From Alitta virens (taxonomy: Eukaryota; Annelida; Polychaeta; Phyllodocida; Nereididae): a stretch of DNA of 64,000 nt. Below, piece after piece: positions 24,335 to 53,207 of this stretch. Each line of letters begins with the position of its first letter. The first letter of the stretch is position 1. The notes under the pieces were generated by a model. It worked only from the letters and a program-made list of their open reading frames with translations. It was not told the DNA's origin and did no database searches. Position numbers and translations under genes: made by a program. Where the stretch lies: assembly GCA_932294295.1 (NCBI GenBank), contig OW028576.1, forward strand, positions 22,141,227 through 22,205,226, read 5' to 3'.

Positions 24335-24424
24335 TAAAGCCCCTTGCACACTTAGCCAGTTTTGCTGTAGTGAACCCATAATGTTACATAACGGTTATGC
24401 AACAGCTTTTTTCGCCGGGTTGGC

Positions 24425-24640
24425 AACGGATTGTGGCGGCAAAAAGGGTTCTACGGGTGACTTGGCGGGTTCTACGGGTAACCCGCCGGCTTCCACGGGT
24501 GACTCGCTGGGTTACGGCCACTTAGTGAACAAATTCCAGGGGTGACTCGACGGCTTCCATGGGTGACTCGCTGGGTTCTACGAGTAACTCGACAGCTTCT
24601 ACGAGTAACTCGACGGCTTCTCTGGGTAACTCTAATTTTA
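24425..24640 (+). repeat. 21-bp subterminal array, element A left end
   Basis: Degenerate copies with core GGGTTCTACGGGTGACT changing inward to CGACGGCTTC and TCGACAGCTTC variants. It lies between the TIR and the transposase promoter. Confidence 0.7.
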
Positions 24641-24730
24641 AAATATAACGACGGGAAAGCCAGCGGGTTTAAAGTAGTAGCTGTCGGGTACCCGTACAAC
24701 ATGTCGAGTGTCTCCTGGAATTTACCAAAA

Positions 24731-24740
24731 TATATAAATA
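24731..24740 (+). promoter_or_regulatory. TATA box of element A transposase
   Basis: TATATAAATA followed by GGGGCTGCATCTCTTGCTC lies about 60 bp before the start codon. The same TATA and downstream block occur upstream of the B and C transposase genes. Confidence 0.7.
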
Positions 24741-24797
24741 GGGGCTGCATCTCTTGCTCTTGATCATTCTGTCTCCAGCTGCAGAAGAGGAAAGACC

Positions 24798-26118
24798 ATG
24801 TACATGCATCAACAAGAACGAAATAGAGCCTTGCTACTAGTAGCTGCTCAGGCCAATTATACATTTAATTTACATCTTGCTTGTGTGATAACAGCTGAGG
24901 AGGAGGAGAGGAAGGGAGAAGAAGAAAGAAAACTGGCAGCCATGAGGAGGAGGAGGAGGAAGAGGAGGCTTTGGGTGAGACCCTGGCTGTTGAGAAGACC
25001 TCAGGTGGGATATTATGAGTGTCTACTGAATGAATTGCTCGTCAAGGATCCCCAAAGTTACACCAACATTATGAGAATGGAACCAGCCATGTTCCAAGAG
25101 GTCCTTGGCAAAATTGGTCCTAGGATTACCAAAGAAGACACCTTCTGCAGGAAAGCTTTGGAGCCAGGACTCAGACTTGCCATCACCCTCCGCTATTTGG
25201 CAACTGGAGACAGCTACAAGTCCCTCATGTATGGCTTTAGAGTGGCCCACAACACCATCAGCTTGATAATTCGAGAAGTCTGTGAAGCCATAATTGCAGA
25301 GTATTCCGATGATCTCCTGGCCTGCCCCACAACTCCAGAAGAGTGGAGACCAGTCGCTGAACTATTTTTTTCGAGATGGAACTTTCCTCATTGTGTTGGA
25401 GCCATTGATGGAAAGCATGTGGCCATCAGATGTCCTCCCAAATGTGGTTCCGTGTACTACAACTAGGGATACCACTCCATTGTACTCATGGCTCTTGTGG
25501 ATACTGACTACAAGTTCCTCTAGGTAGACTGTGGAGCTAACGGAGCTGGATCAGACGGAGGAGTTTTTAGCACGACAGTCCTGAGGGAAGCACTTGAAGA
25601 AGGGACCCTTGGGTTACCTCCACCTGAACTAATTCTTCCTGGTGGCAGACGTCTTCCCTACTTCATTGTCGGAAATGATGCCTTTCCTTTGAGAACCTGG
25701 CTGATGAAGCCACTGCTCCCCAGAAACATGACCAAGGAGCAGAGGATATACAATTACTGACTCTCCTGGGCAAGAGGAATTGTGGAAAATGCATTTGGGA
25801 TCCTTGCAGCAAGGTTCAGGTGTCTCCTGACTACCATGACACAGAAAACCAAGACAGTGGAATCCATAGTCATTGCATGCCTCCACAATCTGATGAGAAT
25901 AAGGTATCCAACTGCCCAAAACAACATGGTGGACCAGGAAGATCCAATCACACATGTAATTACCCCAGGAAATTGGAGGGCAGCTGGAGAAATTGATGAA
26001 ATGCCTCCACCCTCTAGAGGCCATTCTATGACTGATGCAGCCAAGAATCAACGGCAGTACTTGGTTGACTGTTAATTCAGAGGAAGGAAGTGTGCCATGG
26101 CAAGATGACATGGTATAA
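24798..26118 (+). pseudogene. PIF/Harbinger transposase pseudogene, element A
   Basis: It encodes a DDE_Tnp_4-type transposase that would cut and rejoin the element ends in the nucleus. The start ATG at 24798 matches B by the following MHQ-ER context. A Glu/Arg-rich helix precedes the conserved MRRRRRKRRLWVRPWLLRRP basic segment. GAIDGKHVAIRCP (first Asp), SDGGVF (second Asp) and GIVENAFGIL (Glu) are all present. Three in-frame stops interrupt it: TAG at 25464, TAG at 25521 (where B has Tyr) and TGA at 25758 (where B has Arg). Two Cys codons of the ACCCLHN motif are deleted, and a frameshift near 26072 precedes the final VPWQDDMV. Non-functional. Confidence 0.92.
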
Positions 26119-26137
26119 AGATACTACAAAACAACCC

Positions 26138-26153
26138 GGCCTTTTTCAAGGCC
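26138..26153 (+). promoter_or_regulatory. Histone-type 3' stem-loop, A transposase
   Basis: GGCCTTTTTCAAGGCC forms a 6-bp stem with a UUUC loop, starts 19 nt after the stop codon and is followed by ACCA. It meets the metazoan histone 3' stem-loop consensus (GGYYYU-loop-ARRRCC-ACCA). CCGAAAGAGCA about 12 nt downstream resembles a purine-rich histone downstream element. An AATAAA at about 26199 offers an alternative polyadenylation signal in this copy. Confidence 0.65.
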
Positions 26154-26350
26154 ACCAAATCCTCCCGAAAGAGCAGACCATGTACACTTCTTGTGTTAAT
26201 AAAAAAAAATAGTACCTGTCTGACCCACCCAAAATAAACACCATCCCAGGTGGATTTCGTCTCTCCTGAAATTTGACGTTTTTCCCGTACATTAATTACC
26301 AAAAATATATAAATCATTGTAGTAGTTGTTCAGAACTTTGTATAATTTTT

Positions 26351-26638
26351 TGGCTTCAGAAGTGCCGTAGTTATGTCTTGTTCAGAAGTGCCGTATTTTT
26401 CTTTTGCTTCAGAAGTGTCGTAGTTGCGTCTTGTTCAGAAGTACCGTATTTTTTTTTTGCTTCAGAAGTGCCGTAGTTTTTTCTTGTTCAGAAGTGCCGT
26501 ATTTTATTATTTTTTTCAGAACTGCCGTAGTTTTTCTAGTATACTGTCATGAAAATAATAAAAATAATGAAAGTACTGAACCAAAAAAAAAAGATACGGC
26601 ACTTCTGAACAAGAAAACAACTACAGCAGTTCTGAACC
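26351..26638. repeat. Foldback of TTCAGAAGTGCCGTA repeats, element A
   Basis: Five or six copies of TTCAGAAGTGCCGTA(G/T)TT in forward orientation (26351-26540) are followed, after a TATACTGTCATGAAAATAA centre, by inverted copies (26590-26638). The left arm is longer than the right. It sits between the two convergent genes. The same structure with the same centre occurs in B. Confidence 0.8.
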
Positions 26639-26994
26639 AAAACAATTATGTCTTCTTTGCTCAAAATTATTAACCCTGACACAACCACACTTAAGTTAAT
26701 AGCAATTTTGTTTGCTAAAGAAATATGAAAACTTTATTAAAGTGTGATGATGAGCAATTTACTGAAAGTGTAAAATAAAGAAATATTACAAAATAATGGA
26801 CCAATACGTATTTGTGCTCTAATCAAAAGGAAATATGAACAAGTTACTTGATGTGAAGAAATTGTTTTTGGACTAAAATATTACACTTTCTTGGACGAAG
26901 ATAGAGAAAAGTTTGGAGGGTTTTGGAACTTTTTTTTTATTGATTGTTAACACAAATATATGTACAAAGGCGTGCTCTTTTGGGAGGATTTGGT

Positions 26995-27072
26995 GGCCTT
27001 GAAAAAGGCTGGGGTTGTTTTGGGTGGCCTTGAAAAAGGCCGGGGTTGTTTTGGGTGGCCTTGAAAAAGGCC
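26995..27072 (-). promoter_or_regulatory. Three tandem histone-type stem-loops, A MADF gene
   Basis: On the minus strand, GGCCTTTTTCAAGGCC occurs at 27072-27057 and 27041-27026; a third copy with one changed base lies at 27010-26995. The period is about 31 bp and ACCCAAAACAACCCC links them. The first lies 17 nt after the stop codon. The last is followed by ACCAAATCCTCCCAAAAGAGCA, as in the other gene ends. Confidence 0.65.
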
Positions 27073-27089
27073 GGGGTTGTTTCAAGTTT

Positions 27090-28685
27090 CTACAGGTTGA
27101 GAAACTGACTCATATTCATTGATGGAGGAACCGACGGAGGAAGTGAAAAAGGTCCAGCTACTGATGAGGATGGCCAATTCTTTTCCGTACTTAATATCGA
27201 CTGGCTGTAGTGCAGCTGCTGATGAGGCCCAGGAGGAGGAGGAGGAGGGTAGTACTGCTGCTGGTGCTGCTGCTGATGCTGCTGGGGTTGCTGCTGGTGC
27301 TGATGCTGCTGGGGTTGCTGAAGCTGCTGGGGTTGCTGCTGGTGCTGATGCTGCTGAGGTTGCTGCTGCTGGATTTTTGCTCTCTGAATATTTCCTTTCA
27401 GTTGCAAAAACATTGGCTGCAGTTGGGCATGCAGCTCATCGAAGGACTCGGGATCCAAAGTCATGCATATAGCAACCAAGAAGTCACCGAGTACCCAGAT
27501 TCGTCTTTCTGTAAGATCCTTTGGAGGAGGACCAGCCATTTGCTGCATCATAGCCTGCAGCGCTCCTGAAGATGACTGGCAAAATGGACTAGCTTATCTA
27601 TCCCAGTTTGCTGCTGTTCCGATTCCTTTCTCCTTTTCTTGTAGGGGCCACCCTTGGTTTGCTCAGCAGGAGGGGCATCCATGGAGATATCTGGATCGGA
27701 ATGATCATGGATCTCAGATTCCTCCGCTGCAGTGGAGCTGTCCTCCTGTTCCTGAGTTTCTTCTTCGTTTTTGCAATGCGCTTTGCAAGCACATTGGTGC
27801 CTTGGCGACTAGGAATCCGTGTGATATGGTTTACCAGGAAACCGAAATTTGCACAAATCCATTGTCCTTCTTTGTAGGATTGCGCTTCGCAGTACCGGAT
27901 GGCCCCTGCTTCACCTGTTTTCCTGCACTGGTCCTCATAGACTCCAGCCAGGTCTTCAGTTGAAATCCATTGCAGGAAACACTGAGTTTGGCAGCCATTT
28001 CATTCAGGAGGGCCGCCAATCTTCCTGCCTGAATCCTTATATTCTTTTAGAGTCCTGTCATAAAGGATAGGATTGTCGCGATACCAGAAGGCGACATCCT
28101 GTTCGTCACTGGTTGGCAGGAACAACTTTTCCTGCTTCTTCCGAGCACCAGGTGCAGCAGACGAGCGAGCAGGGGAAGGTGCTGCAGAGCAACCAGGAGC
28201 AGGGGAAGGTGCTGCAGAGCGACCAGGAGCAGGCGAAGCAGCAGGCGCAGTAGAAGGCAAAGCAGCAGGCACAGGAGAAGGTACAGGCACAGGAGCAGGC
28301 ACAGGAGAAGGTGCAGGCACTCAAGATCGAGCACCAGCCTGACTAGGAGCACGAACACGCACAGGAGCACTTGCAGCAATGGATTCATCAGAGCTGCCAG
28401 CATCTGATTAGATCGTTGGAGGATTTTTCGTTCGTTTCTCAGCAGGCGACTTCGCAGTCCGCTTTGAAGGCGACTTGGCAGGTGCAGGCCGCTTTGAAGG
28501 TGCAGGCTTCTTCAGCTTCGCTTTCACGGGAAGAGCACTCTTCTTCAGCTTATTTCTGATCCTGAAGATCCATCCTCATCGCTGGGTTGATGAGAGGAAG
28601 ACGCCATAGAAGAAGGCGGCTTTTCTGTATCCAAATCAGTAAGTACTGCAGCAGGGATTCTGGATCTAGTCTTTTTCATAGGCAT
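27090..28685 (-). pseudogene. MADF/Myb-like Harbinger partner pseudogene, element A
   Basis: The product would be the DNA-binding partner that helps place the transposase on the element ends. It starts MPMKKTRSRIP at 28685, then shows a Ser/Asp-rich stretch, a frameshift near 28560, a KKSALPVKAKLKKPAPSK and SPSKRTAKSPAEKR basic tail, a stop near 28410, an SPAP-type linker, QEKLFLPTSDEQDVAFWYRD (MADF-like start), a frameshift near 28015, FGFLVNHITRIPSRQ, a stretch of Gln/His repeats (27240-27370), and the conserved end SMNMSQFLNL at 27090. Several frameshifts and stops make it non-functional. The MADF assignment rests on the acidic/aromatic helix pattern and not on a search. Confidence 0.8.
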
Positions 28686-28770
28686 GATGAAAAAATTTTT
28701 GGAGTGGTGTAATAATGGTCTTCACTGTTTGGTAGCAAGATGCTGAATGATCTCATAGCCACTGATCAAT

Positions 28771-28779
28771 CTTTATATA
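28771..28779 (-). promoter_or_regulatory. TATA box of element A MADF gene
   Basis: TATATAAAG on the minus strand, about 86 bp before the start codon, followed by ATTGATCAGTGGC. The same TATATAAAGATTGA block precedes the gene in B and C. Confidence 0.7.
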
Positions 28780-28869
28780 CTGCCTGGATAGTGTATCCCG
28801 CTGTAATGACATAATAAACCCAGTTCGCATTGCATCATAGCTCTAGAGCAAGCATATTGGATCAACAAC

Positions 28870-29110
28870 CTGAACAAGCCGCCGGGTTTACTATGGGTAA
28901 AATTTGGCACCGATAACTCGCCGGGTTCTACGGGTAACCCGCCGGCTTCCACGGGTAATCCGCCAGCTTTTTGGACTTTTTGGACACCCGGGAGTTTGCC
29001 ACGGATGAGCCATGCAAGCATGGCATACCCGGCTACTGGCTCCGAAACTCCCGGGTTGGCCCCGGGTCCCACGAGTGACTCGACGGGTATCGCCGGGTAT
29101 CCATGGGTAG
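28870..29110. repeat. Subterminal array and dyad, element A right end
   Basis: CGCCGGGTTCTACGGGTAAC-type units (28910-28965), then a perfect dyad GCCATGCAAGCATGGC at 29009-29024, then the CTCCGAAACTCCCGGGTTGG block. The dyad is shared with C, D and, in altered form, B, always on the partner-gene side. Confidence 0.7.
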
Positions 29111-29206
29111 CCGTCGGGTTGGAGCCGGAAGCGCATTATGTCACCGTTATGTAATACTAAGGGTTCACTTCGACAAAACCGGCTAAGTGTGAAAGGGGGG
29201 GCTTAA

Positions 29207-32200: not shown

Positions 32201-32767
32201 ATGTTGTGCAGGAGATCTCAAAAGTGCCACTTGTTGATCCACATCAAGTCACCACTCAAGTGTGACACAGGCCATTTAGGTGAACTGTGTTTGTTCCTGG
32301 GCTTGTAATAGGTCAGAAGTTGTCATATTTCTTGAAATATTTCAAAAACCAATCCACAGGGAATCCACAAACTTAAAAGCATCCAAACACTGCCATTTTA
32401 GCTCCGACTGTGGCATTTAGCTGACTGGAATAGTGACGTTTTTGTGACGTCATCAATGACTTCATAGGCTTGCAGTGCTAAATTTAGCTTCAGCTGCATT
32501 GTAGATCTGAGTTTAAAGCTCTGTATCAGTTGCTCAAGACACCCAAAACATCAGTTCTAGTTATTCAATATTTACGAAATTGCAGGGGATAAATCTTGAT
32601 GTAGTAATTGATCACACCGTGAAATATCAAGCATGAGAAAAATTCATATAAGCTTCATATAACTTGTTCAATTGGAGGAGGCATGTTGGCTACAGACTAC
32701 TGTTATGATGAGTGTATGGTCAAGTTTTTTAAATTTTAGCTATAAAAAAACAGTCATGGGATAAATA
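29207..32767. other. Gene-free stretch
   Basis: No supported coding region. It contains repeat R3 (30858-31085) and four CCAAT or CCAATCA words between about 31857 and 31995, with no associated gene start. Frames at 30152-30337 and 31622-31861 (minus) have no recognisable features. Confidence 0.4.
30858..31085 (+). repeat. Dispersed repeat R3, copy 2
   Basis: Counterpart of 23500-23705: CGCCCACATTCATAAATGTG, GGCATTGCATGTTTCCAGTG and ACTCATCTAGGAG-like words in the same order. The 109-codon plus-strand frame across it is not conserved in the other copy. Confidence 0.7.
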
Positions 32768-32908: not shown

Positions 32909-32926
32909 CTGTAAGTACAACAAATC

Positions 32927-33079: not shown

Positions 33080-33156
33080 TTCAATTAATTTATCTGATTG
33101 TAAATTTTTAAATGCGATATAATTATATGACTCAAACTTTGTACCAATGGTGTATG

Positions 33157-33187: not shown

Positions 33188-33487
33188 AACTTTTTGTAAT
33201 TAATGCTTGATAGATTCATTAGCTTACACATATTCAGTGTGCCTTGATCAAATCATTTGATGAAGTTTTAGAAAAAAGTAATTTTGACAGTCTGTGGAGC
33301 TTAAAGCCCCGTTCCCACATAGCCGAGTTACTCGTAGTCAGCTCGTAGTATTACGTAACACGCCTCTCGGGCCCAACTCTTACTAAACTCTGCGATTACT
33401 CCTCGCACTCGAGAGATGTTCGGCGAGAAACTCCTGTGTCTCGTAGCGAACTCGTGAGATTTGGAGCCGAGTTTGCCGAGTATCCCG

Positions 33488-33512
33488 AGTATGCCGTGCT
33501 GCACGGCACACT
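33488..33512. repeat. Partner-gene-side dyad, element B
   Basis: TGCCGTGC and GCACGGCA around a single T, extended by GAGT/ACTC. It occupies the position of the GCCATGC/GCATGGC dyad of subfamily 1, with changed but still symmetrical bases. Confidence 0.6.
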
Positions 33513-33559
33513 CGGCGGATTTTCAGGAGTTTCAAAATCTTGGTCATGTCTCGCCGAGT

Positions 33560-33790
33560 ACCAGGAGTCACTCGGCGAGTAACTCCTCTAACTCGCCGAG
33601 TAACTCCTCTAACTCGCCGAGTTACTCGCCGAGTTACTCGGCGCTAATTTCACTCGTATTACACTCGACTGGATGTTCAGGAGTGCGAGGAGTAATTCGC
33701 CGAATTGTAGGAGTAATTCGCCGAGTTGTAGGAGTAATTCGCCGAGTTGTAGGAGTAATTCGCCGAGTTGTAGGAGTGCCAGAATTCAGT
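33560..33790. repeat. 21-bp subterminal array, element B left end
   Basis: Two sets of units: ACTCGCCGAGTAACTCCTCT-type outside, and four near-identical GGAGTAATTCGCCGAGTTGT-type units (33688-33776) inside. The period equals that of subfamily 1, but the sequence differs at matching positions. Confidence 0.8.
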
Positions 33791-33925
33791 CGAGGGGGTT
33801 TAAAGTGTCACTCCGTGGGTTTAACCAGTGAATGATGTAGATCCAACGCGCTTGGACTAACTGCAAATGACGCAATGGTATCTGGGTTTGTTATGTCATC
33901 ACAGCGGGGTACGCTCTCTAGGTAG

Positions 33926-33934
33926 TATATAAAG
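33926..33934 (+). promoter_or_regulatory. TATA box of element B MADF gene
   Basis: TATATAAAG followed by ATTGACCAGTGATCAG, about 82 bp before the start codon at 34016. Confidence 0.7.
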
Positions 33935-34015
33935 ATTGACCAGTGATCAGGGGATCATTCAGCATTTTGCTAACACACATAGAAGACCAAAAGACCGCTC
34001 CAGAAATTTTTTATC

Positions 34016-35704
34016 ATGCCGATGAAAAAGACCAGGTTCGCCAAAAGGCCTGCAGTGGACACAGAACTATCTGCTGGATCTTCTGATGACTCTGAAAACC
34101 CGACAAAGACATCGCAGAAGAGTGCTCTTCCTGTGAAGAAAATGAAGAAGTCTGCTGCAAGATCTCCTGTCAAGAAGACTGCTGCTGCCAAAAGATCTCC
34201 TGGCAAGAAGACTGCTGCTGCTGCAAGATCTCCTGCCAAGAGGACTACTGCTGCTGCAAGATCTCCTGCCAAGAGGACTGCTGCTGCAAGATCTCCTGCC
34301 AAGAGGACTGCCAAGACGCGTCTGCCAGTGCCAACAAGAACGTCATCAGATGCTGGCAGTAGTAATGATGAGCCCCAGGTTGCTACTCCTGCGTCTGCTG
34401 CAGCACCTGCTTCTTCTTCGCCTGCACCTGCTCCTTCGCCTGCTCCTTCGCCTGCTCCTTCGCCTGCTCCTTCGCCTTGTCCTTGGCCTGCTCCTTCGCC
34501 TGCTTCTTCGCCTGTTCCTTCGCCTGCTCCCTCGCCTGCTACTTCACCTGCTACGTCCGAAGTGCCTGCTACACTTTCCTATGTTGCCAGGAAAAAACAG
34601 GAAAAGTTGTTCCTGCCAGCCACTGATGAGCAGGATATCGCTGACTGATTTAGAGACCATCCCATTTTTTATGACCGGACCTTGAAATCCTACAAGGATT
34701 CAGGCAAGAAAATGGCCCTCATCAATGAGATGGCAAGGAGACTGAGTGTCCCCTGCACTGGATTCCAATTGAAGACCTGGATGGAATCCATGTGGACTGT
34801 CGCAGGGAAACTAGTGCGGCAGGGACCATCTGGAACTGCGAAGAAGAACCCCACAGAGAAGGAGTTGTGGATCATAACGAATTTTGGATTCCTTGTGGAC
34901 CACATAACACGCATTCCAAGTCGCCGGGGGAACACTGCCCTTCAGAAGAAAATTGTCAAGACACGGGAGACACTTAAAAATCTCGAGGAAGAAGAAGGGA
35001 GCTCTACTCCAGCTGATGATTCCGGGCCCCAGGAAATTTCTGATCCGGACATTTCTATGGATATCCCTCCTGTCCGGCAGACGAAGGGTGGTCCATACAA
35101 GAAAAGGAAAAGGTCCACGCCACCGCAATCTGGCATAGAAAATCTTGTGAACATTGCCAGAGAGTCTACTGGAGTCATCCAGCAGACTATGCAGCAAATG
35201 GTCGTTCCTCCAAAGGATTTGAAGGAGAGGCGAATCCGGGCGATGGGGGAGTTCATTGTCATGGAATGCCTGTCCATGGATGATGAAGCATTTGAAGACC
35301 TGCACAGCAACCTGATCCCCACATTCATGCAGCTCAAAGCGAATGCCATTAGAGCCAGGTTCCAGCTGCAGCATCAACCCCAGCATCAACCTCAGCAATT
35401 CATGCAGCACCAGCAGCATCACCAGCAGCAGCACCAGCAGCAGCACCAGCAGCAGCACCAGCAGCACCAGCAGCAGCACCAGCAGCAGCACCAGCAGCAC
35501 CAGCAGCAGCACCAGCAGCAGCACCAGTTCTATCCTCCTTCTGGGTCCCAGCATCAGGTGCACTTCCCACCAATGATAAGTCCAGAAAAGAATTGGCCAG
35601 CGGGAACCTCAGCAATGCCTCCTTCCGGACCTCCATCCATGATATCCGAGATTCCCACCACTTCAACTCCTTCTTTGAACATAAGCCAGTTTTTGAATGT
35701 TTGA
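34016..35704 (+). pseudogene. MADF/Myb-like Harbinger partner, single premature stop (element B)
   Basis: A 562-codon frame broken only by TGA at codon 211 (34646-34648), where the other copies have Trp. Order: an SPVKK/SPGKK/SPAKR repeat tail (residues 45-100) like histone H1 tails; an SPAP-rich linker (about 125-182); KKQEKLFLPATDEQD, then the MADF-like three-helix region (about 200-275) with DHPIFYDR, MALINEMARRLSV and FQLKTWMESM; NFGFLVDHITRIPSR; a basic PYKKRKR patch; KDLKERRIRAMGEF; a Gln/His run (about 450-505); and the conserved end SLNISQFLNV. It probably binds element DNA in the nucleus and recruits the transposase. TATA box upstream, stem-loop downstream. One base change separates it from an open frame. 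Confidence 0.85.
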
Positions 35705-35729
35705 AGACAACAGTTTTAAAACCATCCCC

Positions 35730-35745
35730 GGCCTTTTTCAAGGCC
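35730..35745 (+). promoter_or_regulatory. Histone-type 3' stem-loop, B MADF gene
   Basis: GGCCTTTTTCAAGGCC begins 25 nt after the stop codon, followed by ACCAAATCCTCCCAAAAGAG. It is a single copy, unlike the triple in A and C. No AATAAA follows within about 100 bp; ATAAAC is the nearest. Confidence 0.65.
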
Positions 35746-36005
35746 ACCAAATCCTCCCAAAAGAGCACGCCTTGTACACATATCTGTGTATAAACAATCA
35801 ATCAAAAAAAAAGTTCCAAAACCCTCCAAACTTTTCTCTATCTTTGTCCACGAAAGTATAATATTTTATTCCAAAATCAATTTCTTCACATCAAGTAACT
35901 TGTTCATATTTCCTTTTCATTAGAGCACAAATATTGGTCCATTTTTTTGTAATATTTCTTTTAATAAGGGTTAATAATTTTGATGAAAGAAGACATACTT
36001 TTTTT

Positions 36006-36287
36006 GGTTCAGAACTGCCGTAGTTTTTTCTTGTTCAGAAGTGCCGTACTTTTTTTTTGTTCAGAAGTGCTGTAGTTGTGTCTTGTTCAGAAGTGCCGTA
36101 TTATTTTTTTTGCTTCAGAACTGCCGTAGTTTTTTCTATTATACTGCAATGAAAATAATGAAAGTACGGCACTTCTGAACAAGAAACAACTACGGCACTT
36201 CTGAACAAGAGAAAAAATACGGCACTTCTGAACAAAAAAAAAAGTACGGCACTTCTGAACAAGAAACAACTACGGCACTTCTGAACC
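36006..36287. repeat. Foldback of TTCAGAAGTGCCGTA repeats, element B
   Basis: The left arm has five units (GGTTCAGAACTGCCGTAG to CTTCAGAACTGCCGTAG). The centre TATTATACTGCAATGAAAATAATG matches the centre in A. The right arm has five inverted units ending CACTTCTGAACC. The arms are about 130-150 bp each. A transcript reading past either gene end would fold into a long double-stranded RNA. Confidence 0.85.
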
Positions 36288-36375
36288 AATAAAATATTTT
36301 GTGTGGGTCAGACAGGAACTTTTTTTTTTATTACACAAGAAGTGTACATGGTCTGCTCTTTTGGGAGGATTTGGT

Positions 36376-36391
36376 GGCCTTGAAAAAGGCC
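36376..36391 (-). promoter_or_regulatory. Histone-type 3' stem-loop, B transposase
   Basis: On the minus strand GGCCTTTTTCAAGGCC begins 20 nt after the stop codon, followed by ACCAAATCCTCCCAAAAGAG. An AATAAA lies about 45 nt further along. Confidence 0.7.
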
Positions 36392-36411
36392 GGGGTTGTT
36401 TTGTGGAATCT

Positions 36412-37737
36412 TTATACCATGTCATCTTGCCATGGCACTCTTCCTTCGTCTGAATTGACAAAGTCCACCAAGTACTGCCGTTGATTCTTGGCTGCTTCAG
36501 TCATAGAATGCCCTCTATTTGTTGGTGGCATTTCAGCGATTTCTCCAGCTGCCCTCCAAGTTCCTGGGATGATACGATGTGTGATTGGATCTTCATGGTC
36601 CAGCATGATGTTCTGAGCAGTCGGATAAGTTATTCTCATCAGATTGTGGAGGCAGCAACATGCAATGACTATGGATTCCACTGTCTTAGTTCTTTGTGGC
36701 ATGGTAGTCAGGAGACACCTGAACCTTGCTGCAAGGATCCCAAATGCGTTTTCCACAATTCTTCTTGCCCGGGAGAGGCGGTAATTGTATATCCTCTGCT
36801 CTTTGGTCATGTTTCTGAGAGGCAGTGGCTTCATCAGCCAGGTTCTCAAGGGGAAGGCATCATCTCCGACAATGAAGTAGGGAAGAGGTCTGTGACCAGG
36901 AAGAATTGGTTCAGGTGGAGGTAATCCAATGGTCCCTTCTTCAAGTCCTTCTCTCAGGAGTGTATCATTAAAAACTCCTCCATCAGATCCAGCGCCGTTT
37001 GCTCCACAGTCTACATAGAGGAACTTGTAATCAGCATCCACAAGAGCCATGAGTACGATGGAATGGAAGCCCTTGTAATTGAAATACACTGAACCACCTT
37101 TTGGAGGACATTTGATGGCCACATGCTTCCCATCAATGGCTCCAATACAGTGAGGAAAGTTCCACCTTGAATAGAACAGTTTCGCAACTTCTCTCCACTC
37201 TTCTGGAGTTGTGGGGCATGCCAGGACATCTTCATTATACTCCGCAATGATGGCTTCACAGACTTCTCGAATTATGTTGCTGATGGTATTGTAAGCCACT
37301 CTGAAGCCATACATGAGGGACCTGTAGCTGTTTCCAGTTGCCAAATAGCGGAGGGTGATGGCAAGTCTGAGTCCTGGCTCCAAAGATTTCCTCCAGAAGG
37401 TGTCTTCTTTGGTAATCCTATGACCTATTTTGCCAAGGATCCCTTGAAACATGGCTGGTTCCATTCTCAAAAAGTTAGTATAACTAGAAGTGTCCTCTTG
37501 CATCAGTTCAGTCAGTAGACGCTCATACTGTCCCATCTGAGGTCTTCTCAGCAGCCAGGGCCTCACCCAACACCTCCTCCTCCTCTTCCTCCTCATGGCT
37601 GCTAATTTTCTTTCTTCTTTCTTCTTACTCTCCTCATCCTCAAGTAATGCTGCTGCAACAACAGCAAGTTGCAGATTCGCATGAGCAGCTAGTAGTACCA
37701 AGACTCTATTCTGATGTTCTGTCTGATGCATGTCCAT
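36412..37737 (-). CDS. PIF/Harbinger transposase, intact (element B)
   Basis: A complete 441-residue DDE_Tnp_4-type transposase that would excise and insert the element at TTA/TAA sites. Start MDMHQTEHQ at 37737; an ATG two codons on (MHQ) is the alternative and is where C starts. A Glu/Lys-rich helix (30-50) and a basic patch RRKRRRRCW (49-57) precede a helix-turn-helix-like region (about 85-160, RITKEDTFWRKSLEPGLRL, RYLATGNSYRSLMYGFRV). Catalytic candidates are D202 (GAIDGKH), D252 (SDGGVF; D243 is also conserved) and E329 (RRIVENAFG). CCCLHNLMR is at 360-368. The C-terminus EGRVPWQDDMV is conserved in A and C. No intron is needed. It is TATA-driven from its own end of the element. Confidence 0.95.
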   Translation of the reverse strand: MDMHQTEHQNRVLVLLAAHANLQLAVVAAALLEDEESKKKEERKLAAMRRKRRRRCWVRPWLLRRPQMGQYERLLTELMQEDTSSYTNFLRMEPAMFQGILGKIGHRITKEDTFWRKSLEPGLRLAITLRYLATGNSYRSLMYGFRVAYNTISNIIREVCEAIIAEYNEDVLACPTTPEEWREVAKLFYSRWNFPHCIGAIDGKHVAIKCPPKGGSVYFNYKGFHSIVLMALVDADYKFLYVDCGANGAGSDGGVFNDTLLREGLEEGTIGLPPPEPILPGHRPLPYFIVGDDAFPLRTWLMKPLPLRNMTKEQRIYNYRLSRARRIVENAFGILAARFRCLLTTMPQRTKTVESIVIACCCLHNLMRITYPTAQNIMLDHEDPITHRIIPGTWRAAGEIAEMPPTNRGHSMTEAAKNQRQYLVDFVNSDEGRVPWQDDMV

Positions 37738-37794
37738 GGTCCTCTCTCTTCAGCAGCTACAGACAGAATGATCAAGAACAGAAGATGCAGCCCC

Positions 37795-37804
37795 TATTTA
37801 TATA
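37795..37804 (-). promoter_or_regulatory. TATA box of element B transposase
   Basis: On the minus strand TATATAAATA followed by GGGGCTGCATCTTCTG, about 58 bp before the ATG. Confidence 0.7.
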
Positions 37805-37869
37805 TTTTTGTAATTAAACACAGCTATTTGCATAATAATTTAAGTAATAACCCTGATGAGTATCATGAG

Positions 37870-38110
37870 TATAACTCGTCGACTTTACGAGTTACTCCTG
37901 GTACTCGGCGAGTTACTCCTGGTACTCGGCGAGTTACTCCTGGTACTCGGCGATTTACTCCTCTAACTCGCCGACACTCTCCTCGAAATCGTTCACTAAT
38001 TGGCTGCAACTTGGCGAGTCACTCCTGGTACTCGGCGAGTCGCTCGCTGAACCCGCCGAGTAACTCGGTGAGTAATTCGGTGAGTAATTCGGCGAGTCAC
38101 TACTGGTCAC
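37870..38110. repeat. 21-bp subterminal array, element B right end
   Basis: Units of the GAGTTACTCCTGGTACTCGG type (37885-37960) and GTAACTCGGTGAGTAATTCG type (38050-38095). Confidence 0.75.
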
Positions 38111-38339
38111 TTTTTCCGCAAAAATTCGTCGCCAACTCCTCGAATTTTGGGTGTTACGTAATTTTTGTTATTACTACGAGTTGACTACGAGAAACTCGGC
38201 TATGTGGGAACGGGGCTTTAAGCATATTAGTAATCTCACGTAGCATGAATGGAAGAGTGGGTGGGTGGTTCTTTTAGAAACTTACTGCATGGGGACCAAT
38301 GGGACAATAAGGGCAGAGTACGCTGGGGCAGTATCCTGA

Positions 38340-46229: not shown

Positions 46230-46445
46230 TATACAGATGGTTCGCAGTTCCAGCTTTATAAAATGTACACAATCGAGATGTCTGGGGCATAATACTTCTC
46301 GTCCAGTGCCTATTCACGTCATTCACACCGTCCGAGCCCCATTCAGACCTTTGCAGCTTCAATTCACCTCAGATAGGTCCAATTACAAGATTCCTTCAGG
46401 ACATTTGCGGAAGCCAGACAGTCTTAGATGTCACGAATCACGTTA
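46230..46445 (+). repeat. Dispersed repeat R5, copy 1
   Basis: CATTCACACCGTCCGAGCCCCATTCA (parts CATTCACACC and CGAGCCCCATTCA), CACCTCAGATAGGTCCAATT and AGCCAGACAGTCTTAG-like words match the minus strand at 63425-63600. Confidence 0.65.
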
Positions 46446-48415
46446 GACGGCTATATGCAAATACTTGTCTTATATAACAGTTGCATTGTTGTACTGCTGA
46501 AAAGGGTTTGTATTTTGGTATGCAGTAAACTGCAACAAACCCTACCCTAGACCGGTCCATCAATCACTACATCAGAGAGGTACGTACTGCCTAGTCTGGT
46601 ATGTCCTACATGTGGACAATCGTTGGATAATTTTTCTCAGAAACCACTCATAAAAACTTCACAAAATACCTTTCATTATAACGGTATTTCACATAGTAGT
46701 GCTTTATATCAAATCAGGCCCACCTGGAAAGCAAACTTTTGAAATCCCTTTGGAATAACATTGCCGAACGTTTTAGTGGTAAGCTGCATGCTGGATTCAT
46801 TGTAGACACCATTGCTACGCAACTATATTTGGTCTTTTCTAGTCATTAGCGCCGTTACCAGACCAGTCTAAGACGTCATGGCAAGCTAGGGAACTGTAGT
46901 GTAGATCTTTTAACACTGAAATGCTGCGAAATGGACAGTTTAAATATTTAAAACAAGTAACAAGCAAAGCTCTCATCAAAAAGAGACCTGTACCAGACTT
47001 GTGTGACAGTATATTATAATAGTCAATAAATGATTCTACAAAACTCATACTCCACAATGACAAATTGATACTCCTGAATAAATAAGATGAAATCAAGATA
47101 AATTTTGTGAAAGATCTTAATTTTCTAGGTATGTATGTGGCTTCATCCATACATAGCACTGACCCATAATTTCATTTTTTTTTTGTTGCACCACACCACA
47201 TAATTAGTCCAGATTTTGTTTTCCTTGATAATTGCCTTTTACGTGAGCACTTCCATGACCCCTGGAGTGGAGTTTCCTGCAAATTGTTGAGTGATAGAAA
47301 TGGATGCCACGCTTGCCTCAAAATGCTTGTAAATTTTTTTCTATGAAATTTTAGGGTTAGAAGATAGTTCACAAATATATTTCTGGCTAATCCCTCTAGG
47401 ATATTTTGCAAGGTCGACCACTTCTAAGTAGGGATATTAGCGATCCTGAGCTTCTTACAATGTAAGTTACTTGATATACTTTAAAATCATGAATATGAAA
47501 ACAATGTGAGATGGGTTTTAGCCCTGTCCCAATTGATTAGTATTGATTATTCTTTTTTTGTGATGCATCTGACAGCTCTTTTGATCCTGGCATTGTTAGT
47601 ACATTTAATATCATACGCAATGAAAATTACAAATATTTAGATAATCATTGCGTTGCTTTGACTAGATATCTAAAAAAAGTGCACTGCTTTCTAAGCAGAA
47701 TATGAGCTTCAAAATCAGCAGATCAGTTTGAAAGACATGGTTAACTTATTTTTGCACAACTCCTTAAGCACAATTTATTTACTTATCTGTTACATAATTG
47801 ACAAACAAGCCGAAACCATTTAAAAACAGTGCACTAATCAAGGCAGATCCAACACTGACTGTCAAACTTCATCTTGAATTTCCATGGTCTGTGATAAACC
47901 AAAAAAAAATCTCAAGGGAGTTCATATACTTTCGAGCCCAGTGGCTTTTGATTAGGCTTTTTAAGTTGACAGCTATACGGTGCCATGTGCCTCCATGCCT
48001 CGTTAAAAAATGCGATAAACATAATTGTCTTATTCTATGACATTTGCCGTTATGCATAATAATAATGACCAACCTTGAATAATAATAACAATGACCGCAA
48101 TATCAACATTGATGAAGCATTTTGTCTTTTTTATTTAAGATTATGATTGTTTATCACAGATTGAGTTTTTGCTCTTCAGGGAGAACTGCGTGATTATCAC
48201 AATATCACTATGGTAACTGTAACAGCCATTTTCAGGCTATAAGCAATTTGTTAATTACACTGACAGGCAGGTTGTCTGCTAAGTAAAGAGCAACTTTCTC
48301 AGTAACTTGCTTGAAACCAATTACAAAATTTCAACGAGGTACCAACAACCTACTCTGAATGAGTTTCGCTGTACAATTTCCTGCAATAGAATGTCCATTC
48401 TAATCTTTTACACAG
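46446..48415. other. Gene-free stretch
   Basis: AT-rich. Open frames at 46839-47159 (minus), 47172-47411 (minus) and 47798-48040 (plus) have no recognisable features. Confidence 0.4.
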
Positions 48416-48592
48416 TAAAGCCCCCATCTCACATAGCCGGTTTTGCCGTAGTGAACCCGTAGTATGACATAACGGTTACGTAACACGCTTCCCGGCTCCA
48501 ACCCGACGGCTACCCGTCCATACCCGGCGATACCCGTCAGGTCACTCCTGGGACTCGGAACCAACCCGGGAGTTTCGGAGGCGGTAGCCGGG

Positions 48593-48614
48593 TATGCCAT
48601 GCTTGCATGGCATA
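48593..48614. repeat. Perfect 22-bp dyad, element C
   Basis: TATGCCATGC and GCATGGCATA around a TT centre, without mismatch, on the partner-gene side. Same core as the dyad in A and D. Confidence 0.75.
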
Positions 48615-49064
48615 CTGTGGCAAACTCCCGGGTGTCCAAAAACCCTTCATAAGCCCGTACAACTCGGCGGATTACCCGTCGAAGTCGGCGAGTTATCCGT
48701 CCCTAATTTTAGTCGTAGTAAACCCAATGGCTTGTTGAGGGGTACTAGGGGTAAGTCGACTAGTAGTAGGAGTGACTTGACGGCTTCCATAAGTAACCCG
48801 TTGAGTTAGTCGAGCACTCCTATGGTTTAATACGACTGAGTCGCTTTGGTGCAATAAGCATAATGATGCAATGCCATCTGGGTATCAGATGTCATCACAG
48901 CGGGGTACGCTATCCAGGGTGAGTCTAGGGCTTCATAATTTAGCCGTCAAGTTTGCCCAGTGCCAGGGTTACTCGTGTTGATCCAATACACTTGAACTGA
49001 TTGGTAGTGCAAAATGCGATCTGGGTTTATTATGTCATCACAGATGGGTACACTATCCAGGCAG

Positions 49065-49073
49065 TATATAAAG
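49065..49073 (+). promoter_or_regulatory. TATA box of element C MADF gene
   Basis: TATATAAAG followed by ATTGACCAATGG, about 82 bp before the ATG. A related upstream stretch (ATGTCATCACAG, TACGCTATCCAGG) occurs twice at 48890-49060, suggesting a local duplication of promoter sequence. Confidence 0.65.
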
Positions 49074-49154
49074 ATTGACCAATGGGTTAAGAGATCATTC
49101 GGCATCTTGCTATCATACAAAGAAGATGAATACACCGTTCTAAAAATTTTTATC

Positions 49155-50715
49155 ATGCCGATGAAAAAGACTAGGATTACCAGGAACCCTGCACTTCATA
49201 CTGAGGATGCAGAAAAGTCGCCTTCCTCTATGGATTCTTCCTCATATCGTCCAAGCGATGAGGATGCATCTTCAGCATCAGAGAAGACTTTAAAGAAGAA
49301 TAAGAAGAGTGCTCTTCCTGTGAAGGAAAAGATCACGAAGCCTGCACCTTCAAAGTCGCCCGCAAAGCGGACTGCACCTTCAAAGTTGCCCGCAAAGCAG
49401 ACTGAACCTTCAAAGTTGCCCGGAAAGAAGCGTTTGAGAATTGCTACCAAGTCATCATCAGATGCAGGCAGCACTGATGAGTCACAGAAATCAACTGCTG
49501 CTAGTGCTCCTGTTCGTGCTCGTGCTGCTACTCATTCTCGTGCTCCTGCATCTTCTCCTGCTGGGAATGTACCTTCAACTGCTGGTTGGAGAAAACAAGA
49601 AAAGCTATTCCTGCCAGCCAGTGATGAACAGGATGTCGCTTACTGGTATCACGACAATCCTATCTTTTACGACAGGACCTTGAAGGAATACAAGGATTCA
49701 GGCAGGAAGATGGCCCTCCTCAATGAAATGACTGGCAAACTGAGTGTCCCCTGCAATGGATTCCAACTGAAGACCTGGCTGGAATCAATGAGGACAAGTG
49801 CAGGCAAACTACTTAAACAGGGGCCATCTGTTACTGTCAAGAGGAATCCCACGGAGAAAGTGGATATGTGTAAATTTTGGATTCCTGGTGGACCACATCA
49901 CGAGAATTCCAAGTCGCCAGGGCAGCAACATACTTGCAAAGCGAATTGCCAAGACCAGGAAGACACTCCGGGAACTGGAAAACAGCTCGACTGCAGCTGA
50001 AGAATCTGGGCCCCAGGATAATTCCGATCCGGACATGCCCCTCCTGCCGAGCAATCCAAGGGCGGCCCCTACAAAAAGCAAAGGAAGGAAGGTCCGCAAA
50101 GTGGCATTGATCAACTCATTGATCTTGCCAAAACTTCATCTGGAGTCCTCCAGGCAACGATCAAGCAAATGGTTGCTCCTCCTCCCAAAGACCTGACTGA
50201 GAGACGAATCCGGGTGCTGGGAGATTTCTTGTTTCGGAGTGTTTGACGCTCGACCCGGAATTGTTTGATGAGCTCCACACACAACTGCTGCCAATGTTCA
50301 TCCAACTCAAAGCAAAGGAAACATTCAGAGAGCCGAAGTCCAGCAGTAGCAGCAGTAGCAGCAGTAGCAGCGGTAGCAGCGGTAGCAGCGGTAGCAGCGG
50401 TAGCAGCGGTAGCAGCGGTAGCAGCGGCAACAGTGGCAACAGTGGCAGCCACAGTTCTTCGGTCCTCCTCCTCCTCCTCCTCCTCCTCCTCCTCCTCCTC
50501 CTCCTCCTTCTCCTCCTTCTCCTCCTCATCCTGGGCCTTATCGGCAACACCAGCTCCACGACACCCAGCCACTTCTTAGTCTGGAGAAGACTTGGCCATC
50601 TGCAACAGTACCTGGACCTTCATCAGTACCTCCTACTGGACCTCCATCCATGATATCAGAAATACCAGGCAGTACCTCAACAACGATGAATATGAGCCAG
50701 TATTTGAACCTCTAG
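49155..50715 (+). pseudogene. MADF/Myb-like Harbinger partner pseudogene, element C
   Basis: It starts MPMKKTRITRNPALHTED. A Ser/Asp-rich stretch and the lysine-rich KKSALPVKEKITKPAPSK and KSPAKRTAPSK tail precede KQEKLFLPASDEQDVAYWYH, DNPIFYDRTLKEY and MALLNEMTGKLSV, the MADF-like region. A frameshift near 49870 moves FGFLVDHITRIPSRQ to another frame; further shifts occur near 50035 and 50235. The Gln-rich segment is replaced by AGC/GGT and CCT microsatellites (50338-50517). The conserved end MNMSQYLNL closes at 50715. Non-functional. Confidence 0.82.
50338..50517 (+). repeat. AGC/GGT and CCT microsatellites in element C
   Basis: About 100 bp of AGCAGT and AGCGGT triplets are followed by about 50 bp of CCT triplets, at the position of the Gln/His run of B. 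Triplet expansion after loss of coding constraint is the likely explanation. Confidence 0.8.
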
Positions 50716-50733
50716 ACACTACAAACCATCCCC

Positions 50734-50812
50734 GGCCTTTTTCCAGGCCACCCAAAACAATCTCGGCCTTTTTCAAGGCCACCCAAAACAACCCCCGGCG
50801 TTTTTCAAGGCC
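50734..50812 (+). promoter_or_regulatory. Three tandem histone-type stem-loops, C MADF gene
   Basis: Copies at 50734-50749 (GGCCTTTTTCCAGGCC, one stem mismatch), 50765-50780 (perfect) and 50797-50812 (GGCGTTTTTCAAGGCC, one mismatch), each followed by ACCC or ACCA. The first begins 18 nt after the stop. CCCAAAAGAGCAGGCC follows the last. Confidence 0.65.
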
Positions 50813-51387
50813 ACCAAATCCTCCCAAAAGAGCAGGCCTTGTACACATATTTGTGTTAACAATCAATTAACAAAAAGGTTCTAAAACCCTCCAAACTTTT
50901 CTCTATCTTTGTCCAAGAACTTTGAAAAGTATAATATTTCTCAAAAATTTTTTTTTTTTAATTCAAGTAACTTAATCATATTTCCTTTTAATTAGAGCAC
51001 CAAAAGGTATTGGTCCATTATTTTGTAATATTTTTTTAATTTTACACTTGGACTATTTTTCTGTAAATTTCTTATTATCACACTTTAATAAAGTTTTCAT
51101 ATTTCTTCAGCAAACAAAATTTCATTTAACTTAAGTGTGGTGTCTTTCAATTGCCTCAGCATTGACATTGAGTAAAAGGACCCATCCATGTTGCACATTG
51201 ACCCCTCAGGTGGACTCTTTTCCTTGCCTCAGGAAAGACACAGAGTATAATGGACCAGCAATTTAACGTACAATATTCTGAACGAAATCCAGCTGGGATG
51301 GTGCTTATTTTGGGTGGGTCAGACAGGAACTAATTTTTTTTTTTACACAAGAAGTGTACATGGTCTGCTCTTTTGAGAGGATTTGGT
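50813..51387. other. Intergenic spacer of element C
   Basis: The spacer between the convergent genes lacks the TTCAGAAGTGCCGTA foldback of A and B. It keeps the common GGTGGGTCAGACAGGAAC block near the transposase end and an AT-rich stretch with AATAAAG at about 51087. Confidence 0.6.
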
Positions 51388-51403
51388 GGCCTTGAAAAAG
51401 GCC
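51388..51403 (-). promoter_or_regulatory. Histone-type 3' stem-loop, C transposase
   Basis: On the minus strand GGCCTTTTTCAAGGCC begins 20 nt after the stop codon and is followed by ACCAAATCCTCTCAAAAGAG. Confidence 0.68.
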
Positions 51404-51423
51404 GGTGTTGTTTTGTGGAATCT

Positions 51424-52723
51424 TTATACCATGTCATCTTGCCATGGCACACTTCCTTCCTCTGAAGTAACATGGTCGACCAAGTACTGCCGTTTAATCT
51501 TGGCTGCATCAGTCATAGAATTGCCTCTAGTGGGTGGTGGCATTTCATCAATTTCTCCAGCTGCCCTCAAAGTTCCTGGGGTGATTCGATGTGTGACTGG
51601 TTCTTCCTGGTCCACCATGGTGTTCTGGGCAGTGAGATACCTTATTCTCATCAGATTGTGGAGGCAGCAGCATGCAATGATTATGGATTCCACTGTCTTG
51701 GTTTTCTGTGGCATGGTAGTCAGGAGACACCTGAACCTTGCTGCAAGGATCCCAAATGCATTTTCCACAATTCTTCTTGCCCGGGAGAGTTGGTAATTGT
51801 ATATCCTCTGCTCCTTGGTCATGTTTCTGAGGGGCAGTGGCTTAATCAGCCAGGTTCTCAAAGCAAAGGCATCATCTCCAACAATGAAGTAGGGAAGAGG
51901 TCTTTCACCAGGATGAATTGGTTCAGGTGGAGGTAACCCAATGGTCCCTTCTTCAAGTGCTTGCCTCAGGAGTGTCGTGCTAAAAACTCCTCCGTCCGAT
52001 CCAGCTCCGTTAGCTCCACAGTCTACATTGAGGAACTTGTAGTCAGCATCCACAAGAGCCATGAGTACAATGGAGTGGTATACTTTGTAGTTGTAGTACA
52101 CGGAACCACCTTTGGGAGGACATCTGATGGCCACATGCTTTCCATCAATGGCTCCAACACAATGAGGTAAGTTCCATCTTGAAGAGAATAGTTAAGTGAC
52201 TTCTCTCCACTCTTCTGGAGCTGTGGGGCAGGCCAGGACATCATCGGAATACTCTGCAATTATGGCTTCACAGACTTCTCGAATTATGGAGCTGATGGCC
52301 ATACATGAGGGACCTGTAGCTGTCTCCAGTTGCCAAATAGCGGAGGGTGATGGCAAGTCTGAGTCCTGGCTCTAAAGCTTTCCTCCAGAAGGTGTCTTCT
52401 TTGGTAATCCTGGGACCAATTTTGCCAAGGACCTCTTGGAACATGGCTGGTTCCATTCTCAAAAAGTTGGTATAACTTGGGGGTGTCCTCGTGGAGCAGT
52501 CCATTCAGCAGACGCTCATAATATCCCACCTGAGGTCTTCTCAACAGCCAGGGCCTCACCCAGAACCTCCTCCTCCTCATGGCTGCCAGTTTTCTTTCTT
52601 CTCTCTCTTCCTCTCCTCCTCCTCCTCAGCTAGTGCTGTTACACAAGCAAGTTGTAAATTAAATGTATCTTTGGCCTTAGCAGCTAGTAGTAGCAAGGCT
52701 CTATTTCGTTCTGGTTGATGCAT
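51424..52723 (-). pseudogene. PIF/Harbinger transposase pseudogene, element C
   Basis: It starts MHQPERNRALLLL at 52723. A frameshift after KKENWQP (about 52580) moves MRRRRFWVRPWLLRRPQVG to another frame. A second shift near 52500 restores TNFLRMEPAMFQEVLG, and a small deletion near 52300 removes the FRVAYNT segment. An in-frame stop near 52194 precedes LFSSRWNLPHCVGAIDGKH. The downstream 236 codons to EGSVPWQDDMV are open and keep IDGKH, SDGGVF and RRIVENAFG, so the catalytic core reads through but the protein cannot be made whole. Sequence agrees with A more than B. Confidence 0.9.
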
Positions 52724-52781
52724 GGTCCTTCCTCTTCTGCAGCTGGAGACAGAATGATCAAGAGCAAGAGATGCAGCCACC

Positions 52782-52791
52782 TACTTATATA
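52782..52791 (-). promoter_or_regulatory. TATA box of element C transposase
   Basis: On the minus strand TATATAAGTA followed by GGTGGCTGCATCTC, about 60 bp before the ATG. Confidence 0.6.
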
Positions 52792-52839
52792 TTTTTGGTA
52801 AATGTACGGGAAAAACGTCAAATTCCAGGAGAGACTCGA

Positions 52840-53110
52840 CATGTTGTACGGGTAAGCCGACGGCTAGAAGTTTTAACTCGCCAAAGTTCCTGTCGTTATA
52901 TTTTAAAATTAGACCAGGCGACGTACACGTTGAGTCACTCGTAGAAGTCGTTGAGTACTCGTGGGACCCGTCTAGTCACCCCTGGAAGCCGTCGAGTCTC
53001 TCCTGGAATTCGTCCACTAATTGTTCGTAACCCATCAAGTCACCCGTAGAACCCGTCGAGTCACCCAAAGAACCCGTTGAGTCATCTGTAGAATCCTTTT
53101 TGCTGCCAGA
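52840..53110. repeat. 21-bp subterminal array, element C right end
   Basis: Units such as GTCGAGTCACCCAAAGAACC and GTTGAGTCATCTGTAGAATC with a 21-bp period, more degenerate than in D. Confidence 0.65.
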
Positions 53111-53207
53111 ATCCGTCGCCAACCAGGTGAAAAAAGCTGTTGCATAACCATTACGTCATACTACGGCTTCACTACGGCAAAACCGGCTATGTGAGATGGG
53201 GGCTTAA

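Follow-up and report, generated by a model that had tools for sequence, protein, structure and literature searches.

Both genes of Harbinger transposons in the annelid Alitta virens appear to end in the 3'-processing cassette of the host's histone genes

We analysed a stretch of 64,000 nucleotides (64 kb, the window hereafter) from the polychaete Alitta virens (assembly GCA_932294295.1, contig OW028576.1, positions 22,141,227 to 22,205,226). The window contains three PIF/Harbinger transposons, A, B and C, each with a transposase gene and a second gene that face each other. Both genes of the host's Harbinger transposons appear to end in the 3'-processing cassette of the host's own replication-dependent histone genes. 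In the cassette, a 6-bp stem with a loop of UUUC or UUUA is followed by ACCA and the short spacer AAATCCTCC(C), and a purine-rich histone downstream element (HDE) is found 12-13 nt past the stem. Over all of these signals, the ends of the transposon genes are almost equal to those of the host histone genes, and one machinery should therefore process both. We put the probability that the mRNAs of these elements are processed like replication-dependent histone mRNAs, by the SLBP and U7 machinery, at roughly 0.8.

The whole window was searched for GGCYYTTYTCARRGCC with at most two mismatches, with 100 shuffled sequences as the control. Ten hairpins were found, compared with 0.57 expected and a maximum of three in any shuffle, and all ten are on the gene-sense strand, each after its gene. 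Among them are the six hairpins of the initial annotation, one for each gene, all at the positions given there and in the same range of 17-25 nt from the stop codon (distances read by eye, with those of the broken A genes measured from the homologous stop). The four added hairpins complete tandem triplets with ~31-nt spacing after the second genes of A and C. One stem mismatch is present in three of the ten hairpins, at 26995, 50734 and 50797. The initial annotation also placed an HDE-like block downstream of each hairpin. Such a block, resembling the host AAAGAGAGC, is indeed present in all six cassettes, but in both triplets it is found only behind the most distal hairpin, and behind the proximal hairpins, 27057 and 50734 included, ACCCAAAACAA is present and an HDE is not. 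L005, a diverged relative of these elements, has tandem stem-loops as well, in arrays of at most three. An mRNA cut at the last stem-loop of such an array would carry several SLBP sites. A possible second hairpin past the HDE (ACACA...TGTGT) was considered and is not supported; it can be drawn in single alignment rows, and a fixed-column count gave only 51% of cells paired, in columns that may misfit rows with shifted loops.

The initial annotation proposed the Rfam model of the histone stem-loop (RF00032) as a test. This model accepts one of the ten hairpins at its gathering score, the one after the C transposase gene (34 bits). Eight more score between 30.7 and 18.8 bits (E<=5), below the gathering score, and the hairpin at 50734 is absent from the matches. 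The Rfam evidence taken alone is borderline. The observation is nevertheless real and stronger than first claimed, and the comparison with the host's own histone genes is decisive. In the host genome (671 Mb, 23 contigs), the core histone genes are arranged in tandem at C12:25.16-25.28 Mb, a cluster with 15 full-length H4 matches. Over its full length, the host H2B shares 97% identity with H2B of Urechis caupo, the closest named full-length protein among the 120 matches listed, in which unnamed proteins reach up to 99%. We read the ends of H4, H2B, H2A and H3 in one cluster unit, and they follow the pattern GGCCTTTTT[C/A]AAGGCC ACCA[A/T]ATCCTCC AAAGAGAGC AGACC [A/T]TG[T/C]ACAC, then a TTGTG motif. 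In shorthand, this end is GGCCTTTTT[C/A]AAGGCC-ACCAAATCCTCC-AAAGAGAGC-AGACC...TGTACAC, with single-base differences in H3 and H2A. The B transposase gene ends in GGCCTTTTTCAAGGCC ACCAAATCCTCCC AAAAGAGC AGACC ATGTACACTTCTTGTGT. The transposon ends thus match the host histone ends almost letter for letter over ~60 nt, and the host histone genes carry nearly the same downstream block in addition to the same stem-loop, which the initial annotation had named as a point to be checked.

A 41-nt profile of the four host histone ends, run ungapped over both strands of the window (maximum score 162), gives 154, 150, 150, 146, 146 and 142 for the six cassettes. The proximal triplet hairpins reach 90-98, and no site apart from the ten hairpins exceeds 92. 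A covariance model built solely from the same four ends accepts all six cassettes, with 60.5-80.3 bits and E values of 5.2e-17 to 1.9e-23, compared with 15.8 bits for the best non-hairpin site in the window. Of ten further loci scanned with this model, L004, L005, L007, L008, L009, L030 and L064 exceed 40 bits.

Throughout the genome, the exact 28-mer GGCCTTTTTNAAGGCCACCAAATCCTCC has 675 copies, and the reversed sequence used as the control has none. We estimate that ~45 of these copies are in the histone cluster, counting three genes in each of ~15 units (the H3 spacer differs), and that at least 600 are elsewhere. Among the positions of the first 100 copies, 62 form 31 pairs at distances of 514-1201 bp, and all 31 pairs are convergent, which is the Harbinger layout. 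Twelve of the 38 unpaired sites were fetched: nine match Harbinger proteins by tblastn, one (L075) matches the elements at the DNA level over ~300-nt stretches, and in another (L077) the sequence upstream of the stem-loop resembles, by reading, the second gene of L073 and L004. The remaining site, L079 (G000:C1:31860810-31862210), was left unclassified; it has a histone-like TCCA spacer, GGCCTTTTTCAAGGCC upstream, and no recognised gene.

The association also holds when transposases are found regardless of the cassette. Of the 95 and 97 transposase matches listed, those lying on C1, or on C2 as far as 33.68 Mb, could be compared with the list of exact cassette sites (the one at C2:33679478, just beyond the end of the site list, was left out). 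The cassette follows the last codon by 24-27 nt in all 18 transposases of one set and in all seven of a further set. As a control, the same stretch was examined for matches with DDE_3, a domain of Tc1/mariner-type transposases, and none of the 19 has a listed cassette at a distance of 3 kb or less. Both cassettes are kept in 29 of 30 fetched near-identical copies. The exception is L033 (G000:C2:40319518-40320840), a copy with 99% transposase identity in which the stretch bearing both cassettes is gone and the 3' ends of the two genes nearly touch. The B family looks young in this genome: in the list of 95 transposase matches, identity is 98-100% for most of those at the top, and many are free of internal stops.

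A genome search with RF00032 gave 67 matches (75 candidates scored of 130344), 11 of which were read. This search did not score the histone-cluster ends, and none of the 67 matches is in the cluster. The best match is L002, at 38.9 bits. A pattern scan of IMG/VR gave a single match, which on inspection lacks a downstream block of the histone type, and no Harbinger relative was confirmed when IMG/VR and GTDB genomes were searched for the transposase.

The cassette is conserved beyond close copies. For the second gene, in a comparison of elements that were not selected through their cassettes, A and C agree with B at 41/42 and 40/42 cassette positions, with gene identities of 68% and 70%, and ~80-90% identity continues for ~200 nt beyond the cassette, which indicates that a whole block was kept or exchanged after the second gene. 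In seven transposase comparisons, the cassette agrees at 39-41/42 positions, the genes are 72-88% identical, and the next ~100 nt are mostly 50-80% identical (85% in L071). The cassette is also present in lineages whose transposases are ~49% (L076), 57% (L005) and 64% (L078) identical to that of B. In our alignment A3, stem cells are paired at 98.7% over 26 rows, and a C just before the HDE is found in 17 of 18 Harbinger rows and in none of six histone rows, all of which have A. This difference indicates that the transposon cassettes share descent and were not retaken from histone genes each time.

Excerpts of PMC9756948 and PMC6303110 describe how SLBP and the U7 small nuclear ribonucleoprotein (snRNP) direct a cut after the stem flank, giving an mRNA without poly(A) that is tied to S phase. 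On element transcripts, SLBP would bind the stem-loop, the U7 snRNP would pair with the downstream element, and the pre-mRNA would be cut just past ACCA to leave a tail-less message. Such mRNAs would be made and stable mainly during DNA replication, as histone mRNAs are; since the histone pathway is tied to S phase, transposase would be made mainly in replication. Transposase would then be supplied while a sister chromatid can refill the excision gap, which would favour copy gain. Alternatively, the element mRNAs may be stored with histone mRNAs in eggs; according to an excerpt of PMC12803260, histone mRNA has to be maintained in oocytes regardless of the cell cycle. A gain of copies through sister-chromatid repair would fit what an excerpt of PMC10288884 discusses for Harbinger elements. 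Cleavage of these transcripts, their lack of a tail, the timing of expression, the advantage under selection and a transposition limited to S phase are all inferred from the sequence.

The host has at least part of the required machinery, as the RNA-binding domain of SLBP (PF15247) is found above the cut-off in two exons at C8:22055147-22055967 and in none of 14 control genomes. Several observations weigh against histone-like processing of the element mRNAs. No convincing U7 gene was found in the genome by RF00066 or by two patterns. RF00066 gave three sub-cut-off matches (best 30.8 bits, E 0.024), and sub-cut-off matches were also found in 6 of the 14 control genomes (all prokaryotes by name); a motif search at the RF00066 loci found neither Sm-like nor TCTCTTT sites. 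The pattern GCTCTCTTTN{5,20}AATTTYTCTAG has no match in the genome. The pattern GCTCTYTTTN{0,20}TTTNTCTAG has seven, equal to the seven in the reversed control, and the two that were read (L081 and L083) are not convincing. U7 is short and poorly conserved, and the host histones carry an evident HDE; we therefore read this result as U7 being missed by the search rather than lacking in the host. The second point is an AATAAA ~40 nt past the stem-loop in the transposase cassettes of A, of many B-family copies, and of L069, L070 and L071 (in the window, the stretches are 26138-26212 on the + strand in A and 36317-36391 on the - strand in B), which makes a polyadenylated form possible. Furthermore, the Harbinger-type loci L002, L006 and L074 keep the hairpin without an HDE-like block, and the second-gene cassette of L007 agrees at only 35/42 positions. 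For the transposases of A and C, the excess of cassette over gene identity is slight (41/42 compared with 88%, P about 0.03-0.04). The clearly diverged Harbinger loci were located via the cassette or its Rfam score, and they show persistence of the cassette, not its frequency. The stem is nearly invariant, which leaves covariation almost silent; the one compensated pair is in a repeat without a Harbinger match. Finally, TATATAA and GATCATTC, two promoter motifs of the element genes, are not clearly common to the host histone promoters compared.

One alternative accepts processing by the histone pathway and places its benefit elsewhere: the cassettes may be compact terminators that provide clean 3' ends between facing genes 0.5-1.2 kb apart and thereby limit read-through, antisense RNA and silencing, rather than set cell-cycle timing. 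The uniformly convergent pairs and the presence of one cassette per gene, with added tandem stem-loops in some copies, fit this explanation, which is compatible with histone-like processing and with a timing role as well. Yet ordinary poly(A) sites could serve equally, and most of the copies seen retain the complete cassette with its HDE. We regard termination in place of timing as possible, at odds clearly below even.

Somewhat less probable, and also compatible with histone-like processing, is that the genes have dual ends, with some or most element mRNAs polyadenylated at the nearby AATAAA and the histone end used only in cycling or embryonic cells. In addition to the transposase cassettes named above, AATAAA is present after the second gene, downstream of the cassette in A and L004 and of one cassette in L005, and histone pre-mRNAs are able to take either route according to an excerpt of PMC9756948. 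On the other side, AATAAA is absent from the transposase cassettes of C and L007 and from the second-gene cassettes of B and C. The host histone rows that we read have no AATAAA at that place.

It is also conceivable that an ancestral Harbinger element captured a histone 3' end that has since been copied along unused. The shared C before the HDE, the conserved ~200 nt beyond the second-gene cassette, as if a block had been exchanged, and the absence of the HDE in three loci would be expected of such a passenger. A passenger should not, however, outlast its surroundings as the cassette does in the seven transposase comparisons, nor be found at both genes, on the correct strand and close to the stop; it is kept in 25 of 25 checkable copies, though most of those are young. 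We consider an unused passenger improbable.

It is very unlikely that the hairpin has nothing to do with histone processing and instead serves transposition itself, as DNA or RNA, or is simply an internal inverted repeat. The two cassettes of an element do form an inverted repeat (61 nt and 92% in B), and L033 lacks the stretch bearing both; but the layout is that of host histone ends, including parts beyond the hairpin, and the transposase frame of L033 stays open despite the loss. Chance similarity, to which the mostly sub-gathering Rfam scores might point, is already refuted by the shuffles (10 compared with 0.57), the profile (92 at the best non-hairpin site compared with 142-154) and the genome counts (675 compared with 0), and its probability is negligible.

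Histone-like processing of element mRNAs may extend beyond Harbinger elements. Nine of the genome-wide RF00032 matches share one score (32.4 bits, E 4.6e-5); L009 is among these, and four copies were read. L009 (1466-1540, - strand), L064, L065 and L066 belong to a repeat without a Harbinger protein match, with the stem-loop GGCCCTTTTAAGGGCC, which contains one compensated pair, and a downstream block ACCAAATGTTCCAAAAAGGGC related to that of the cassette. The stem-loop is ~50 nt past an open reading frame that is faintly GDSL/SGNH hydrolase-like (Pfam E 0.02, below the cut-off, and not seen in the L065 copy). The host-histone model gives 42.1 bits for L009 and L064. This family hints that the device may be wider than one superfamily, and the absence of a Harbinger match together with the compensated stem-loop suggests that mobile DNA may have taken the histone route more than once. 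The broadest form of our proposal is that a whole DNA transposon superfamily has, in this lineage of animals, come to express its genes by way of the histone mRNA pathway, with tail-less, SLBP/U7-processed, replication-coupled and perhaps egg-stored messages, and that mobile DNA did so more than once; we think this slightly better than an even bet.

The assignment of A, B and C to PIF/Harbinger is based on their termini and proteins. The terminal inverted repeats (TIRs) are 54-56 nt long and 86-94% identical. A and C have TAA on either flank, as a 3-bp target duplication of PIF/Harbinger elements should give, with limits that fit TAA-AGCCCC...GGGGCT-TAA; the flanking TAA of B is ambiguous, and its exact end is uncertain by a base or two. 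The B transposase, the sole full-length open frame among the six genes, matches DDE_Tnp_4 (PF13359) at 104.4 bits with a cut-off of 24.8, and several of its top protein relatives carry the name HARBI1 in their source. The second gene faces it, and in L005 the corresponding gene has a MADF/Myb-SANT domain (PF10545) above the Pfam cut-off. PF10545 was not matched in two tested pieces of the B second gene; the B and L005 second proteins are ~33% identical over 242 aa. Internal stops interrupt the A transposase gene and the B second gene, and the list of open reading frames has no full-length frame for the A second gene or for either gene of C. TATATAA and GATCATTC are found upstream of all six genes with a separation of ~25-30 nt, which gives the two genes of an element one type of core promoter. 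The coordinates are collected in Table 1.

Table 1. Harbinger elements, B genes, stem-loops and HDE-like blocks in the window.
Feature	Position	Strand	Details
Harbinger element A	24338..29203		transposase gene +, second gene -, convergent; TIRs 86% over 56 nt; limits TAA-AGCCCC...GGGGCT-TAA
Harbinger element B	about 33305..38217		second gene +, transposase -, convergent; TIRs 94% over 54 nt
Harbinger element C	48419..53204		second gene +, broken transposase gene -, convergent; TIRs 91% over 56 nt
B second gene	34016..35704	+	one internal stop
B transposase	36412..37737	-	441 aa, DDE_Tnp_4, without internal stop
Stem-loop after A transposase	26138..26153	+	Rfam 28 bits; host-histone model 80.3 bits, E 1.9e-23
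HDE-like block GAAAGAGC after A transposase	26167..26174	+	13 nt past stem
A second gene, proximal stem-loop of three	27057..27072	-	no HDE
A second gene, middle tandem stem-loop	27026..27041	-	no HDE
A second gene, distal stem-loop, AGCC...GGCC, then HDE	26995..27010	-	host-histone model 60.5 bits
HDE-like block AAAAGAGC after A second gene	26974..26981	-	
Stem-loop after B second gene	35730..35745	+	host-histone model 66.1 bits
HDE-like block AAAAGAGC after B second gene	35759..35766	+	
Stem-loop after B transposase	36376..36391	-	host-histone model 79.4 bits
HDE-like block AAAAGAGC after B transposase	36355..36362	-	
C second gene, proximal stem-loop of three, one mismatch	50734..50749	+	no HDE
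C second gene, middle tandem stem-loop	50765..50780	+	no HDE
C second gene, distal stem-loop (GGCG.., one mismatch), then HDE	50797..50812	+	host-histone model 72.9 bits
HDE-like block AAAAGAGC after C second gene	50826..50833	+	
Stem-loop after C transposase	51388..51403	-	sole window match at RF00032 gathering score; host-histone model 75.8 bits
HDE-like block AAAAGAGC after C transposase	51367..51374	-	

Some further features of the elements are worth recording. The N-terminus of the B second protein (window 34016-34648) contains repeated SPAK/SPVKK-type motifs, which in our view recall histone H1 tails or CDK sites. TTCAGAAGTGCCGTA is found in tandem and inverted copies between the two genes of A (26346-26640) and of B (35999-36294). 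Rfam microRNA matches in these spacers result from such copies; they are within internal repeats and below the gathering scores, and were rejected. Further 21-bp arrays resembling the Harbinger subterminal arrays are located at 12777-13044, 13707-13758, 23142-23321 and 62473-62695, and two additional AGCCCC/GGGGCT ends at 13995 and 62347; these are probably further partial or non-autonomous elements. A HARBI1-like protein, P0012, 62% identical to the B transposase, is filed under a metagenome-assembled genome (MAG) of Candidatus Thiodiazotropha, a clam symbiont, and is probably animal DNA within the MAG bin.

It is still debated how cut-and-paste transposons increase in copy number. An excerpt of PMC10288884 regards the experimental evidence for their repair-based copying as far from conclusive and mentions that cell-cycle timing may matter for Ac/Ds. 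A transposon that took over the replication-coupled histone type of message would have a clock of its own, and this answer could be tested directly. According to an excerpt of PMC6303110, in animals only replication-dependent histone mRNAs end in a stem-loop; if our proposal is true, it would break this rule, and the element mRNAs would be the first non-histone class of animal mRNA known to end in this manner. The estimated non-histone cassettes, at least 600 in number, may then compete with the histone genes for SLBP and U7, and hundreds of natural variants of SLBP/U7 substrates would be present within one genome.

The initial annotation knew of no description of histone-type 3' ends on DNA transposons, and we found none either in the open-access literature, by titles and the starts of abstracts (most subscription journals are outside this scope). 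The parts are known, and their combination appears to be new. With the replication-dependent histone 3' end (RF00032), the cassettes have in common the 6-bp stem, the UUUC or UUUA loop, the ACCA flank, and a purine-rich HDE 12-13 nt past the stem. They differ in that they are on transposase and Myb/SANT-type genes rather than on histone genes, sometimes have tandem stem-loops, have AATAAA downstream in some copies, and are putative processing signals. With PIF/Harbinger (HARBI1-like) elements, A, B and C share DDE_Tnp_4, the MADF/Myb-SANT second protein (seen in the L005 family), TIRs and TAA flanks, and unlike the known elements they have histone-type 3' ends on both convergent genes. Human H2AC18, as described in an excerpt of PMC9756948, likewise combines a stem-loop and HDE with a nearby AATAAA; in H2AC18 the HDE and the poly(A) signal overlap, whereas in the transposons this signal is further downstream and present only in some copies.

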